From: a virus
DNA: 20,381 nucleotides
Direction: 5' to 3' (one strand)
Virus record (IMG/VR): IMGVR_UViG_3300046008_000055
Span: 1-20,381 of that record
Shown piece after piece: positions 8,823 through 18,981 of the stretch. The position numbers were made by a program, and so were the translations under genes. The first letter of the stretch is position 1, and each line of letters starts with the position of its first letter. The notes under the pieces were generated by a model. It was not told the DNA's origin. It did no database searches and saw nothing but the letters and a program-made list of their open reading frames with translations.

Positions 8823-9767
8823 TTAAGTTAAGTCAGCGATAATACCGTGTGCTGCTTCGTTCTTAACTTCTAATGTGTACTCTACCAATAGTTGAGTTAC
8901 ATCAGCATCGCCAGTTTTGGCTAGCTCATTAGTTTGGAATGGGCGCAAGTAAGCTACTGAAGCCATTTCTGGGTCTAGTAAGAATGCTACGTCATCATTG
9001 TCTGAGTTAGGAATGAAACGGTTAGGTACGATAGAGATAGTACCAAAGTCTGAAACAAACACGTCAGCAGCAGCGATGATAGATGCTTGTACGTTGCTTG
9101 GGATATCTTTGTAACGTGTAGCGATACCGGCAAATGTAGATGCAACTACTTTTTGAGCTGGAGTTACCATCAAGATTGTTGGTGAACCACCTGCAACATA
9201 AGCAGATTGGATAACTGTATTCAAGATAGTTTGAGTAAATGCACGGTCTGTACCAGTTCCACGAGCAGTAGTACCAGATGCACCAGCAGTACCAGAAGTA
9301 CCGCCAGAGTAGTTGGTATTTAACCATGCTTGTAAACCACCCAAAGTACGAGCAGTTGTAGCATCACCAGCAGAAGCAACTTGGTTGCTTAATAAGATAG
9401 CTTCCATGTCACGTTTGATTTCGGCAGAAGCCTTAGCCAATTGGTATGCTTTCTCAGATTTACGACCAGCTTTGTTAACTGTTTCCAAAGTACCAGAAAC
9501 TTTAACAGTTTTAGCAGAGATTTGAGTACGGTTACCGATACGAGTAGTAGGTGACAATGTTGCATCAGATGCAGCAGCACCCTCAACTACAGCGTTAGAA
9601 GTGTTAACAGCAGCCAAGCTGTCTTTTTGCCACTCGTGGTATACGGCAGTAGCAGAAGTCTTACCAACAGATGTCATGAATGGAGTATCTGTAGGAGAGA
9701 TGTTGTAGATTACATTAGCCAAGTCTTCACGTTGACCAATGGCGGTATAGGTTTGATATGTTGCCAT
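8823..9767 (-). CDS. Major capsid protein, SU10-like (DUF5309)
   Basis: The 314-residue protein MATYQTYTAIGQREDLANVI (then YNISPTDTPFMTSVG) carries the opening typical of SU10-type HK97-fold capsid proteins. The ATAVYHEWQKDSL strand, a long helix around GRKSEKAYQLAKASAEIKRD, and a C-terminal FQTNELAKTGDADVTQLLVE region (then HGI) are also family features. A Gly/Ser/Thr-rich insertion lies around residues 150-170. The scaffold gene lies immediately upstream (9-base gap with AAGGA Shine-Dalgarno). The protein forms the icosahedral shell. No N-terminal prohead protease is visible, so a separate scaffold is likely used, as in P22. Confidence 0.9.
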   Translation of the reverse strand: MATYQTYTAIGQREDLANVIYNISPTDTPFMTSVGKTSATAVYHEWQKDSLAAVNTSNAVVEGAAASDATLSPTTRIGNRTQISAKTVKVSGTLETVNKAGRKSEKAYQLAKASAEIKRDMEAILLSNQVASAGDATTARTLGGLQAWLNTNYSGGTSGTAGASGTTARGTGTDRAFTQTILNTVIQSAYVAGGSPTILMVTPAQKVVASTFAGIATRYKDIPSNVQASIIAAADVFVSDFGTISIVPNRFIPNSDNDDVAFLLDPEMASVAYLRPFQTNELAKTGDADVTQLLVEYTLEVKNEAAHGIIADLT

Positions 9768-16619: not shown

Positions 16620-17221
16620 TACCAGTCACTCGCTGACATTGTTGATCCGCTTACGTGGTTCTTAGGTGATTTCATATTAGCCCTGTCTATTGCACGTTGA
16701 TTCATATATAAGCTACTTAATTTCCTATCATCAAAATTAATTACCCTAGCACCTTCAATTGTTGGTGTATTTTCGCTAACTTTAGTTTTATATTTTTTAG
16801 GTGATACATACTCTAGCGCATCATCGTAATTCATTAGTTTGGTAGTGACAAAGCTGTAGTATTTACGTGTGCCGGTGTCGCTAACAACAATACTTTTCAT
16901 AAAGCCTCTAGCCATTAAACTCTTAATCGTGTTGGATGCAGTATTCTTATCGGCATCTAATTGTTGCTTCATGTCTGTTAAAGTCTTAGGCAGTACGCAA
17001 AATTCTAGGTAGACGTTATATCTAGCAACCATCTCTTTTGCCAATTTGTCTAGCTTTGCTTCTTGTTTTGCATAGGATTCTGCTATTCTTTTTTCTCTAA
17101 ATGCTTGTTCTGCTTCCTTGGCTTCTTCTTGGGTCTGATAATTTCCTATGTGGATAATTTGACAGTCTGAATCCCTAGCTGTTACTACCCATGCATCTAC
17201 CTTCTTACGAAAGACAATCAT
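16619..17221 (-). CDS. Phage DNA-binding protein: AP2-like N-terminus plus winged helix
   Basis: In this 200-residue protein, residues 1-45 (VDAWVVTARD, then IIHIGNYQTQEEAKEAEQAF) look like the three-strand-plus-helix AP2/integrase-type DNA-binding fold. A basic helix follows. Residues about 70-130 (LPKTLTDMKQQLDADKNTAS, then NTIKSLMARGFMKSIVVSDT, then RKYYSF) have the order of a winged helix-turn-helix with a wing hairpin. The C-terminus ends in SGSTMSASDW, a short tail seen on other phage proteins. It is probably a regulator or accessory of replication or late transcription. It starts in an ATGA overlap with the YbcO-like gene. The domain calls are from sequence appearance only. Confidence 0.7.
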   Translation of the reverse strand: MIVFRKKVDAWVVTARDSDCQIIHIGNYQTQEEAKEAEQAFREKRIAESYAKQEAKLDKLAKEMVARYNVYLEFCVLPKTLTDMKQQLDADKNTASNTIKSLMARGFMKSIVVSDTGTRKYYSFVTTKLMNYDDALEYVSPKKYKTKVSENTPTIEGARVINFDDRKLSSLYMNQRAIDRANMKSPKNHVSGSTMSASDW

Positions 17222-17508
17222 ATTAAACCTTTCTCAATTAATCTTAGTTGCGTTTCAATAACACCCTCTAGGTGCGATAACTTTAATTCATCTCTAGTAT
17301 GGTTAGTTCTTACCCTACCATCTATCGCATCATGGCATCCAGAGCAACAATACGCACCATGTAGGTCGTTAACCTTTTTTGCAGTACCATGCCCATACCT
17401 TATACCGCTTAAATGTGCCAAAACGGTTGTTTCTGGATTGCCATTGCAGTAGCCAATAATTCTGACCGTGCAGTTCTCGCCTTTAGCTGATTGTGTGATT
17501 TTAGACAT
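17218..17508 (-). CDS. YbcO/DUF1364-like nuclease
   Basis: ATG 17508 is preferred to the in-frame TTG at 17526 because AGGA lies six bases before it. The product is 96 residues, the usual length of the family. Motifs: MSKITQSAKGENCTVRIIGY, then CNGNPETTVLAHLSG, then HGAYCCSGCHDAIDGR. Cys13, Cys21, His32, Cys54/55, Cys58 and His59 fit the Zn/HNH-like core of the DUF1364 (E. coli YbcO) nucleases. These are encoded in the nin-like regions of lambdoid phages, often with NinB, as here. It would act on branched or single-stranded DNA during recombination. It overlaps the methyltransferase end by 8 bases. Confidence 0.85.
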   Translation of the reverse strand: MSKITQSAKGENCTVRIIGYCNGNPETTVLAHLSGIRYGHGTAKKVNDLHGAYCCSGCHDAIDGRVRTNHTRDELKLSHLEGVIETQLRLIEKGLI

Positions 17509-18613
17509 TGTTAATCCTATTACCAATCCATTTCATTACAGGCACAGCCATTGAGTTTCCCAATGCTTTGTATCGTGTGCTATCGCTTGATGTAGGTGTG
17601 TTAGTGTAGTTATCCGGGAATCCTTGTAATCGTTCACATTCCATAGGAGTTAGTCTACGAACACGCATACTTTGCATAACTGATGGACCGGAAGAAACAC
17701 CTCCACCTGTTGTTGTTATTGTAGTTGAAACTTCTCCTTGAACAGTTCCATTATACATATCACACGCTACAGCAATTTGCTGATCCTGTGTTGTGCTTAA
17801 AGTAAAGGCTGTGTTATCACTACCCAAATAACCTTTACCTCCACCAGAACATCCACCACGAACTTTAAAAGCATGGGCTATTGCCATCTTAGTATAATCA
17901 TAACTATCAATACCTTTGTAATCTCTAGCTAGTAATGTCCCGGCTGTATTGTATGGTGCAATTACAGCGTTTCCTTCACTTCTTGCTGGATTGTAGCTGC
18001 TGTGGCTTGCAGGGCTTTTTGTAAGGCAATTGGCAATTTCTTGCCCCTTACTTCTGCTCGGCGTAATATCCCCACACAGGCTTTCGGACTCAAAAAGTAC
18101 TTTGGCAGCACTTCGCCAATCTCCAAGACATCCGACAACGAACACACGTCTGCGTCTTTGTGGCACTCCGAAATGTTGAGCGTCAAGAACCCTGTAGGCG
18201 ACCCCATACCCGCATTCAGCCATCCCTTGAAGTAAGGCTGCGAAGTCATGTCCTCCGTTACTAGAGAGTACTCCTGGTACGTTCTCCCATAAAAGCCATT
18301 TGGGTTTAAAGTGGTCAGCCATTGCGAGGTAGGTAAGCATGAGGTTTCCACGAGGGTCTGCCAAACCTTTTCTGAGTCCGGCAACGGAAAATGATTGGCA
18401 AGGTGTTCCTCCGACCAAAAGGTTGACTGGTTCATTTATATTCCACTCCTTAAATTTTGTCATGTCACCATAATTAGTAACATTTGGATAATGATGTTCT
18501 AGCAATTGACTTGGAAACTTCTCAATCTCTGAAAATCCAACTGGATTCCATCCCATGTCATGCCAGGCTACTGTTGCTGCTTCTATTCCACTACATACGC
18601 TTAAATAGTTCAT
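17501..18613 (-). CDS. DNA (cytosine-5) methyltransferase
   Basis: The 370-residue protein carries all hallmark C5-MTase motifs. Motif I: LSVCSGIEAATVAW (residues 4-17, SAM binding). Motif IV: GGTPCQSFSVAG with catalytic Cys72. Motif VI: ENVPG with Glu110. Motif VIII: QRRRRVF (152-158). Motifs IX and X: RRLTPMECERLQGFPDNYT (319-337) and YKALGNSMAVPVM (348-360). Residues about 190-315 form the target recognition domain and are Gly/Thr-rich. It methylates cytosine in a specific site, probably protecting phage DNA from host restriction. No partner endonuclease is visible. It starts in TAATG with ninB, and a 157-codon ORF in another frame is nested in its first half. Confidence 0.95.
   Translation of the reverse strand: MNYLSVCSGIEAATVAWHDMGWNPVGFSEIEKFPSQLLEHHYPNVTNYGDMTKFKEWNINEPVNLLVGGTPCQSFSVAGLRKGLADPRGNLMLTYLAMADHFKPKWLLWENVPGVLSSNGGHDFAALLQGMAECGYGVAYRVLDAQHFGVPQRRRRVFVVGCLGDWRSAAKVLFESESLCGDITPSRSKGQEIANCLTKSPASHSSYNPARSEGNAVIAPYNTAGTLLARDYKGIDSYDYTKMAIAHAFKVRGGCSGGGKGYLGSDNTAFTLSTTQDQQIAVACDMYNGTVQGEVSTTITTTGGGVSSGPSVMQSMRVRRLTPMECERLQGFPDNYTNTPTSSDSTRYKALGNSMAVPVMKWIGNRINNV
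17962..18435 (-). CDS. Candidate overlapping gene nested in the methyltransferase gene
   Basis: This is a 157-codon ORF on the same strand as the methyltransferase but in another frame. It starts at ATG 18435 with AAGGAG ten bases upstream. It is unusually long for a chance frame and its translation has protein-like phrases: GFLTLNISE, then CSLSDVLEIGEV, then KYFLSPKACVGILRRAEVRG with KKLPIALQKAL. I associate the SLSDxLE...YxLSxKACxGILRRAExRGKxLP pattern with hypothetical phage proteins found at cytosine-methyltransferase loci. Those annotations might themselves be shadows of the conserved methyltransferase motif, because the RRRRVF and following codons encode this phrase in the alternative frame. 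So either true dual coding or a conserved artefact. Confidence 0.4.
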   Translation of the reverse strand: MNQSTFWSEEHLANHFPLPDSEKVWQTLVETSCLPTSQWLTTLNPNGFYGRTYQEYSLVTEDMTSQPYFKGWLNAGMGSPTGFLTLNISECHKDADVCSLSDVLEIGEVLPKYFLSPKACVGILRRAEVRGKKLPIALQKALQATAATIQQEVKETL

Positions 18614-18981
18614 TATATGTTCTCATTAAATACAAATCCAATACTACCAGCCCATATTTCAACATGACGTTGGTAATCAGCCATCTCTGCTGTAGATAGC
18701 TTGGTCGTACTCTTAATTACTTCAATTGTTTCGCCATTGACTACAGACTGACTTCGTAGGAACTTCCAGCCCATAAGTTCATGAACCTTATCTGGTGACT
18801 CGCCAATATACTCGCCAAGCGCACCATATAGCTTCCATAAGCGTGAGTTTTGTTCTAGGTTACGTGTGTGTGACTTGATCGTTACGTTAGCCACATAACC
18901 CTGTGATAAATCTAATGCCTTAATCTTTTCAAACAAGTAAGGCAAGTTACTATTGCTAATATTAAATTGTTTAATTTCCAT
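18613..18981 (-). CDS. ninB: NinB-like recombination protein
   Basis: The 122-residue protein has KSHTRNLEQNSRLWKLYGAL, then VHELMGWKFLRSQ, and a C-terminal STTKLSTAEMADYQRHVEIW segment. All match the NinB (lambda Orf) family: the basic R-x-LEQN-x-RLW motif, the GWK segment and the ST..LS..EM motif. Lambda Orf binds single-stranded DNA and SSB and substitutes for RecFOR in phage recombination. The partner here may be the YbcO-like nuclease encoded two genes later, as in nin regions. Starts at ATG 18981 inside the 3' end of the upstream gene (11-base overlap), indicating coupling. Confidence 0.9.
   Translation of the reverse strand: MEIKQFNISNSNLPYLFEKIKALDLSQGYVANVTIKSHTRNLEQNSRLWKLYGALGEYIGESPDKVHELMGWKFLRSQSVVNGETIEVIKSTTKLSTAEMADYQRHVEIWAGSIGFVFNENI

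Follow-up and report, generated by a model that had tools for sequence, protein, structure and literature searches.

A conserved, almost certainly protein-coding reading frame nested in the C5-cytosine methyltransferase gene of a tailed phage and its relatives

The gene for a C5-cytosine methyltransferase in a tailed-phage genome fragment contains, in its +1 frame, a second open reading frame (ORF) that is almost certainly a genuine and long-conserved protein-coding gene, judging from how stops, synonymous sites and residues behave in its relatives. The nested ORF lies in the window, the whole stretch of viral DNA that was analysed (20,381 nucleotides; positions 1 to 20,381 of IMG/VR record IMGVR_UViG_3300046008_000055). 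Its product is, on balance, probably a subunit or regulator of the methyltransferase in which it is encoded. The original prediction had posed a choice between real dual coding and an artefact annotated repeatedly, and dual coding is the side supported by stop codons, synonymous constraint and frame-wise entropy. Overlapping and split C5-methyltransferases, as well as some annotated nested copies, are already known. No description of a phage-wide nested methyltransferase gene was found in the open-licence literature, a body that leaves most subscription journals outside.

The nested reading frame and its conservation

The window was assigned to a tailed phage by PHROG matches of its portal, terminase and major head proteins. 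The host gene of the nested ORF (17501..18613, minus strand) encodes a methyltransferase of 370 amino acids with motifs I-X in one frame, and it matches PF00145 (E 5.9e-61) and the dcm profile TIGR00675 (E 3.3e-61). Its motif IX reads RRLTPMECERLQGFPDNYT and lies, together with motif X, in frame 0. The surroundings are tightly packed: the last base of a NinB-like gene (18613-18981) is also the first base of the methyltransferase start, and an HNH-endonuclease-like ORF with a TTG start (17218-17526) overlaps the methyltransferase end by 26 bases. Elsewhere in the window, an 87-codon ORF (9064-9327, minus strand) lies in another frame within the major head protein gene (8823-9767).

The nested ORF (17962..18435, minus strand; 157 codons, ATG at 18435) falls wholly within the methyltransferase ORF, and its translation begins with MNQSTFW and includes YFLSPKACVGILRRAEVRGKKLP. 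A Shine-Dalgarno sequence, AAGGAG (18446..18451, minus strand), stands 10 nt upstream of the ATG and forms the Lys-Glu codons K55-E56 of the methyltransferase. The position, length, Shine-Dalgarno and peptide originally given for this out-of-frame ORF are all correct. AlphaFold2 predicts the protein poorly up to residue 95 and, from residue 101, as a block with a pLDDT of 81-98, mostly above 90. The C-terminal domain (residues 100-157; 17965..18138, minus strand) is predicted to consist of one short helix and two longer ones, and this conserved C-terminus is basic as well as helical. Searches of Pfam, NCBIfam and PDB sequences with the nested protein gave nothing credible, and a fold search gave no PDB match; the weak viral fold matches were only to a mycobacteriophage protein and a methyltransferase. 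The nested ORF does match PHROG 16143 (E 3.1e-8, profile positions 42-130 of 139), a family matched by 37 of 43 nested ORFs.

The openness of the frame was measured in 74 distinct homologues taken from viral contigs that were retrieved by the methyltransferase protein alone, the alternative frame being ignored in the choice. Methyltransferase codons 60-195 were scored, and the expectation was obtained by synonymous-codon shuffling within each gene. Across these homologues, which share kinship and are therefore not 74 independent trials, the +1 frame held a single stop where 476 were expected and was open in 73 of 74 genes against an expectation of 0.13. The +2 frame held 645 stops versus 696 expected, and beyond the overlap stops were above expectation, not below it. 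When the window gene alone was shuffled synonymously 300 times, the +1 stretch acquired a mean of 6.06 stops and was open in none of the shuffles. Taken together, these counts exclude chance as the source of the open frame.

The result repeats separately in four sequence groups. Three more groups were retrieved with the methyltransferases of Streptococcus phage MM1, a Vibrio phage and a Coprococcus phage, and each has a block of about 120 codons with zero or near-zero +1 stops and sharp borders; stop density is normal on either side of the block and in the +2 frame. The open frame thus extends from Streptococcus phages to the P1/Vibrio group and is broken in only 3 of 247 genes. Alternative-frame stops in homologues, which the original prediction had proposed to look for, are in essence absent.

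Translation signals are retained in three of the groups. The exact AAGGAG is present at the nested site in 58 of the 74 homologues, in which the codons that compose it are minority codons (AAG for 28% of Lys, GAG for 29% of Glu). Of 65 window-type genes, 53 have a Shine-Dalgarno sequence followed by a +1 start, whereas shuffles predict 2.9; the corresponding figures are 49 of 63 (12.7 predicted) for Streptococcus-type genes and 32 of 46 (8.6 predicted) for Coprococcus-type genes. A strong Shine-Dalgarno is present in 0 of 69 genes of the Vibrio/P1 group, which keeps an ATG with a weaker and poorly supported GTGGAA context.

Selection on the nested product is visible in how the two frames vary. 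In the window clade, synonymous differences amount to 1.2-1.3 times the expectation away from the overlap but drop to 0.54-0.73 over codons 121-180 and to 0.22 over codons 181-195, a strong signal in the synonymous-site comparison that had been suggested as a check. Codons 61-120, which cover the first 60 nested residues, show no clear excess of synonymous constraint in the window clade; here the frame is kept open and the sequence is loose. At codons 178-198, column entropy is 0.95 bits for the +1 frame and 1.81 for the methyltransferase frame, and at 18 of these 21 positions it is the +1 residue that is better conserved. All 74 sequences share several +1 residues (A, C, G, R, K, P) at positions where the methyltransferase residue is free to change. 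Over motif VIII, the methyltransferase frame is the conserved one.

Two explanations would account for these patterns without a second protein. According to one, which is very improbable, the alternative frame is an artefact that looks conserved only through conservation of the methyltransferase motifs. The similarity over motifs VI-VIII is in part such a shadow, and the +1 frame of L723, an unrelated methyltransferase from a restriction system, likewise reaches 26 bits from the shared motifs alone. However, synonymous shuffles that preserve the methyltransferase destroy the open frame and lower the score against the nested-protein profile from 210-254 bits to 41-126 bits, and past motif VIII conservation is higher in the +1 frame than in the methyltransferase frame. 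The artefact reading is already refuted by stop counts, synonymous constraint and frame-wise conservation. The suggestion that motif VIII conservation lies behind the pattern holds for a part of the alternative-frame similarity and fails for the segment that follows motif VIII. The other explanation, in which a structure or a regulatory site in the RNA or DNA is constrained, could by itself produce synonymous constraint, but it is scarcely credible here: the constraint is frame-specific, stops are avoided in the +1 frame only, and +1 amino acids are invariant in 74 sequences despite varying nucleotides and varying methyltransferase residues.

Distribution and the segment displaced from the main chain

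Searches of annotated phage records returned 192 and 233 records with a match to the nested protein and to its C-terminal consensus, respectively. In the records inspected by hand, the match lies in the +1 frame of a methyltransferase, Bacteroides phage BT12 excepted. These carriers include P1 and P7 (dmt), Pseudomonas, Enterobacter, Vibrio, Sinorhizobium, Streptococcus, Coprococcus and Mycobacterium phages, and the archaeal virus Drs3. The open +1 frame within dmt/dam measures 163 codons from stop to stop in P1 (L147 2219-2707) and 165 in P7 (L135 2719-3213), and the nested ORF is without annotation in both records. Annotated copies do exist, namely ORF14 of Streptococcus phage MM1 and gp45 of P0092, and together with PHROG 16143 they bear out the link to hypothetical proteins at phage methyltransferase loci that the original prediction had drawn. 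For the P1-like Escherichia phage vB_EcoM-813R1 (L144 1737-2228), the record lists the nested ORF as a hypothetical protein, and the methyltransferase frame seems to be interrupted, perhaps through sequencing errors. In the methyltransferase of Propionibacterium phage B22 (L407 1120-3219), the PCQ motif is split by a long insertion that ends in HN before the Cys and looks like an intein.

Chromosomal genes served as a control. In ordinary chromosomal C5-methyltransferases, found with PF00145, +1 stops are as frequent as expected, and the nested-protein profile gave no match. Chromosomal methyltransferases of the phage type keep the +1 frame open, apart from one or two stops close to an end in a few of them, and match the same profile with E values of 1e-35 to 1e-75.

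A stand-alone form of the protein was sought by scanning genomes and viral contigs with the degenerate pattern AC.GILRRAEKRGK (the sequences of a broad alignment, A1, differ too much to be used for scanning genomes). Of the 239 loci that the pattern gave, 226 show two or more of motifs IV, VI and VIII in the -1 frame. Most of the remaining 13 are truncated by the end of a contig, and a few are frameshifted or decayed; no stand-alone gene was seen. The candidate L443 was rejected as a decayed fragment rather than a gene, and a PHROG 1008-like family, considered as a stand-alone candidate, was rejected because it too lies in the +1 frame of methyltransferases. As far as has been seen, the nested protein never occurs apart from a methyltransferase. 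These genomes and contigs yielded no homologue outside methyltransferase genes, for which the original prediction had proposed to look. On this point the outcome speaks against that prediction, but it would be accounted for by a product that acts together with the methyltransferase.

The origin of part of the nested ORF is indicated by the exception among the phage records. In Bacteroides phage BT12, the matching segment (FLRDVLQSEVPEKYYLSDKMITCLTRHADKRGSK) lies in the methyltransferase frame itself, directly after motif VIII. The motif VPEKYYLS[DE]K likewise occurs in viral contigs in two settings: in ordinary methyltransferases it follows motif VIII in frame (L703, L705-L707, L710, L712, L713), and over methyltransferases of the kind described here it lies in the +1 frame (L701, L702, L704, L708, L709, L711). 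In the window, the corresponding stretch of the nested ORF, CSLSDVLEIGEVLPKYFLS (18088..18144, minus strand), is homologous to LKDILENDVPEKYYLS, the in-frame segment that follows motif VIII in ordinary C5-methyltransferases.

A profile built solely from six in-frame segments of ordinary methyltransferases matched the +1 frame in 140 of 247 genes, frame 0 in one and the shuffles in one, with the bias that these reference segments had been found with a peptide resembling the nested one. The +1 matches comprise 61 of 64 Streptococcus-type, 39 of 49 Coprococcus-type, 34 of 65 window-type and 6 of 69 Vibrio-type genes, and they sit at the same place, just past motif VIII. The one result that avoids the bias comes from the PADLOC Type II methyltransferase model PDLC03329, which matches nested ORFs with E values down to 2.7e-7 at profile positions 235-297. 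The part of this model that covers motifs I-VIII ends near position 190, according to genome matches, which places the nested match downstream of motif VIII; true members of the model carry the segment in the main chain. Firm homology covers about 20 residues (LxDILExxVxxKYYLS). Similarity upstream of LxDILE falls short of significance and is partly a shadow of the methyltransferase motifs, and a longer homology to ordinary methyltransferases upstream of LSDILE was dropped after a profile of that part gave no match. BT12, the in-frame profile and the PDLC03329 matches show that the nested ORF carries in the other frame a segment that ordinary enzymes have in the main chain and that the phage main chain is without.

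Possible roles of the nested product

The nested ORF would be translated by internal initiation at its own AAGGAG and ATG on the methyltransferase mRNA, and its product would be a small trans-acting subunit of the phage C5-methyltransferase. We propose that the small protein docks just after motif VIII, between the catalytic and target-recognition domains, and that once docked it completes or controls the enzyme. The AlphaFold2 predictions offer a supporting contrast, in that the C-terminus of the nested protein is predicted with confidence and the same region of the main chain as disordered. Methyltransferase residues 181-317 (17663..18073, minus strand), between motifs VIII and IX, are variable in the methyltransferase frame and predicted to be disordered, with pLDDT below 50 at 181-184 and 189-317; the nested ORF overlaps residues 181-217 of this stretch. 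The main chain of the window clade keeps motifs IX and X and may thus need no partner, which makes regulation or stabilisation as possible as a strict requirement.

Two rival readings accept the +1 frame and differ in what is made from it. The nested ORF might be translated and selected to give a product independent of the methyltransferase, for example a small protein that binds DNA, counters restriction or regulates genes and simply shares the locus. Unrelated accessory proteins are often encoded by overlapping genes, the basic and helical conserved C-terminus is explained by nothing in PDB or Pfam, and the window methyltransferase has all of its motifs in one frame. This reading is nevertheless judged unlikely, given that the nested protein was never found apart from a methyltransferase in 239 loci, has a methyltransferase-like segment, and has relatives in which the same frame holds methyltransferase motif IX or X. 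Programmed frameshifting past motif VIII would instead give the methyltransferase an alternative C-terminus and no separate protein. A +1 segment resembling methyltransferases does lie just past motif VIII, a shift there would give the natural order, and several loci have motifs IX-X in the +1 ORF only. Frameshifting has no need, however, for a +1 frame that is open for about 90 codons ahead of motif VIII, and in three groups the nested ORF has its own Shine-Dalgarno and start well above expectation; we consider it highly doubtful as an account of the locus.

How far the preferred reading, a nested subunit or regulator, can be generalised is an even question. In its broad form, a large class of tailed-phage C5-methyltransferases, P1 Dmt included, would be two-component enzymes made from one gene in two frames, with the +1 ORF supplying in trans a piece moved from the main chain by an ancient frame change, and with hosts among gram-positive and gram-negative bacteria and an archaeon. 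If the two-component reading is true, few same-strand nested genes known from phages would be as widespread. The conserved second gene lies within a commonly annotated phage gene, P1 dmt included, and offers a clean case of how a protein segment can pass to another frame and be kept by selection over large evolutionary distances. Should the product be part of the enzyme, tests of phage methyltransferases cloned with altered codons may have lacked the partner protein, and a whole protein family would be hidden by automated annotation that does not allow genes to overlap.

Split relatives and known systems

In other relatives, too, methyltransferase motifs are found in the +1 frame. In actinophage-like methyltransferases, the +1 ORF extends to the gene end. 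Sixteen actinophage-type loci (L647-L657, L659-L663) are without motif IX in frame 0 and have the motif IX-like NPxWxEWLMGFP in the +1 ORF; motif X is in frame 0 in 15 of the 16 and was not found in L663. A further locus of this type (L402 2237-2905) also draws NPxWxEWLMGFP from the +1 ORF and has a main frame without motif IX. The actinophage ORFs may be homologous to that of the window, a comparison confounded by the overlap of both with the same conserved motifs. In Mycobacterium phage NiebruSaylor, motif VIII is followed shortly by the end of the main chain, and the +1 ORF continues through motifs IX and X. Six of 239 relatives have motif IX in the +1 ORF. Because of the actinophage loci with motif IX and the NiebruSaylor-type loci with motifs IX-X, the +1 ORF is repeatedly found as a carrier of methyltransferase parts. 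Frame switches that fuse the motif IX-X end to the nested ORF were also observed (L473, L484, L495, L523, L620, L633, L693).

Among the closest known counterparts are PHROG 16143, MM1 ORF14 and P0092 gp45, which occupy the same +1 frame and position as the window ORF and differ in being labelled only "DNA methyltransferase" or "putative methyltransferase". The gram-positive nested forms also differ from that of the window in ending before the ILRRAEKRGKKLP tail. PHROG 1008 looks like a fused form: in this profile of about 329 positions, 9-143 match nested ORFs (E down to 1.4e-7, with a likeness over motifs VI-VIII that is partly a shadow of the methyltransferase frame) and 226-305 match a motif IX-X region.

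The ShiLan insertion element (PMC11855218) places an HNH endonuclease in a second reading frame of phage methylase genes. The window ORF is likewise an alternative-frame ORF within a phage DNA methylase gene, but it covers a conserved core region, whereas the ShiLan element is a mobile HNH insertion with a patchy distribution.

Among naturally split enzymes, M.AquI consists of two polypeptides divided after motif VIII (PMC3404938). NiebruSaylor, L473, L484 and L633 resemble it in being split with motifs IX-X in the +1 ORF. The window differs from M.AquI, whose chain is divided, in that its main chain is complete in motifs and the nested ORF overlaps motifs IV-VIII.

The arrangement in the window would be a variant of that in C5-methyltransferases which, like M.EcoHK31I, are naturally split into two polypeptides. 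In 1995, Lee, Kam and Shaw reportedly found the small EcoHK31I gene within the large one in another frame. The window resembles this system in that its second ORF is nested in the other frame of the large gene. The large polypeptide of M.EcoHK31I has motifs I-VIII, motif X and the recognition domain, and the small polypeptide has motif IX (PMC3404938), exactly the division of motifs seen in the actinophage relatives. The window differs in that its main chain keeps motif IX and its nested ORF has the post-motif-VIII segment in place of motif IX; M.EcoHK31I belongs to one restriction system, whereas the window type occurs in phages.
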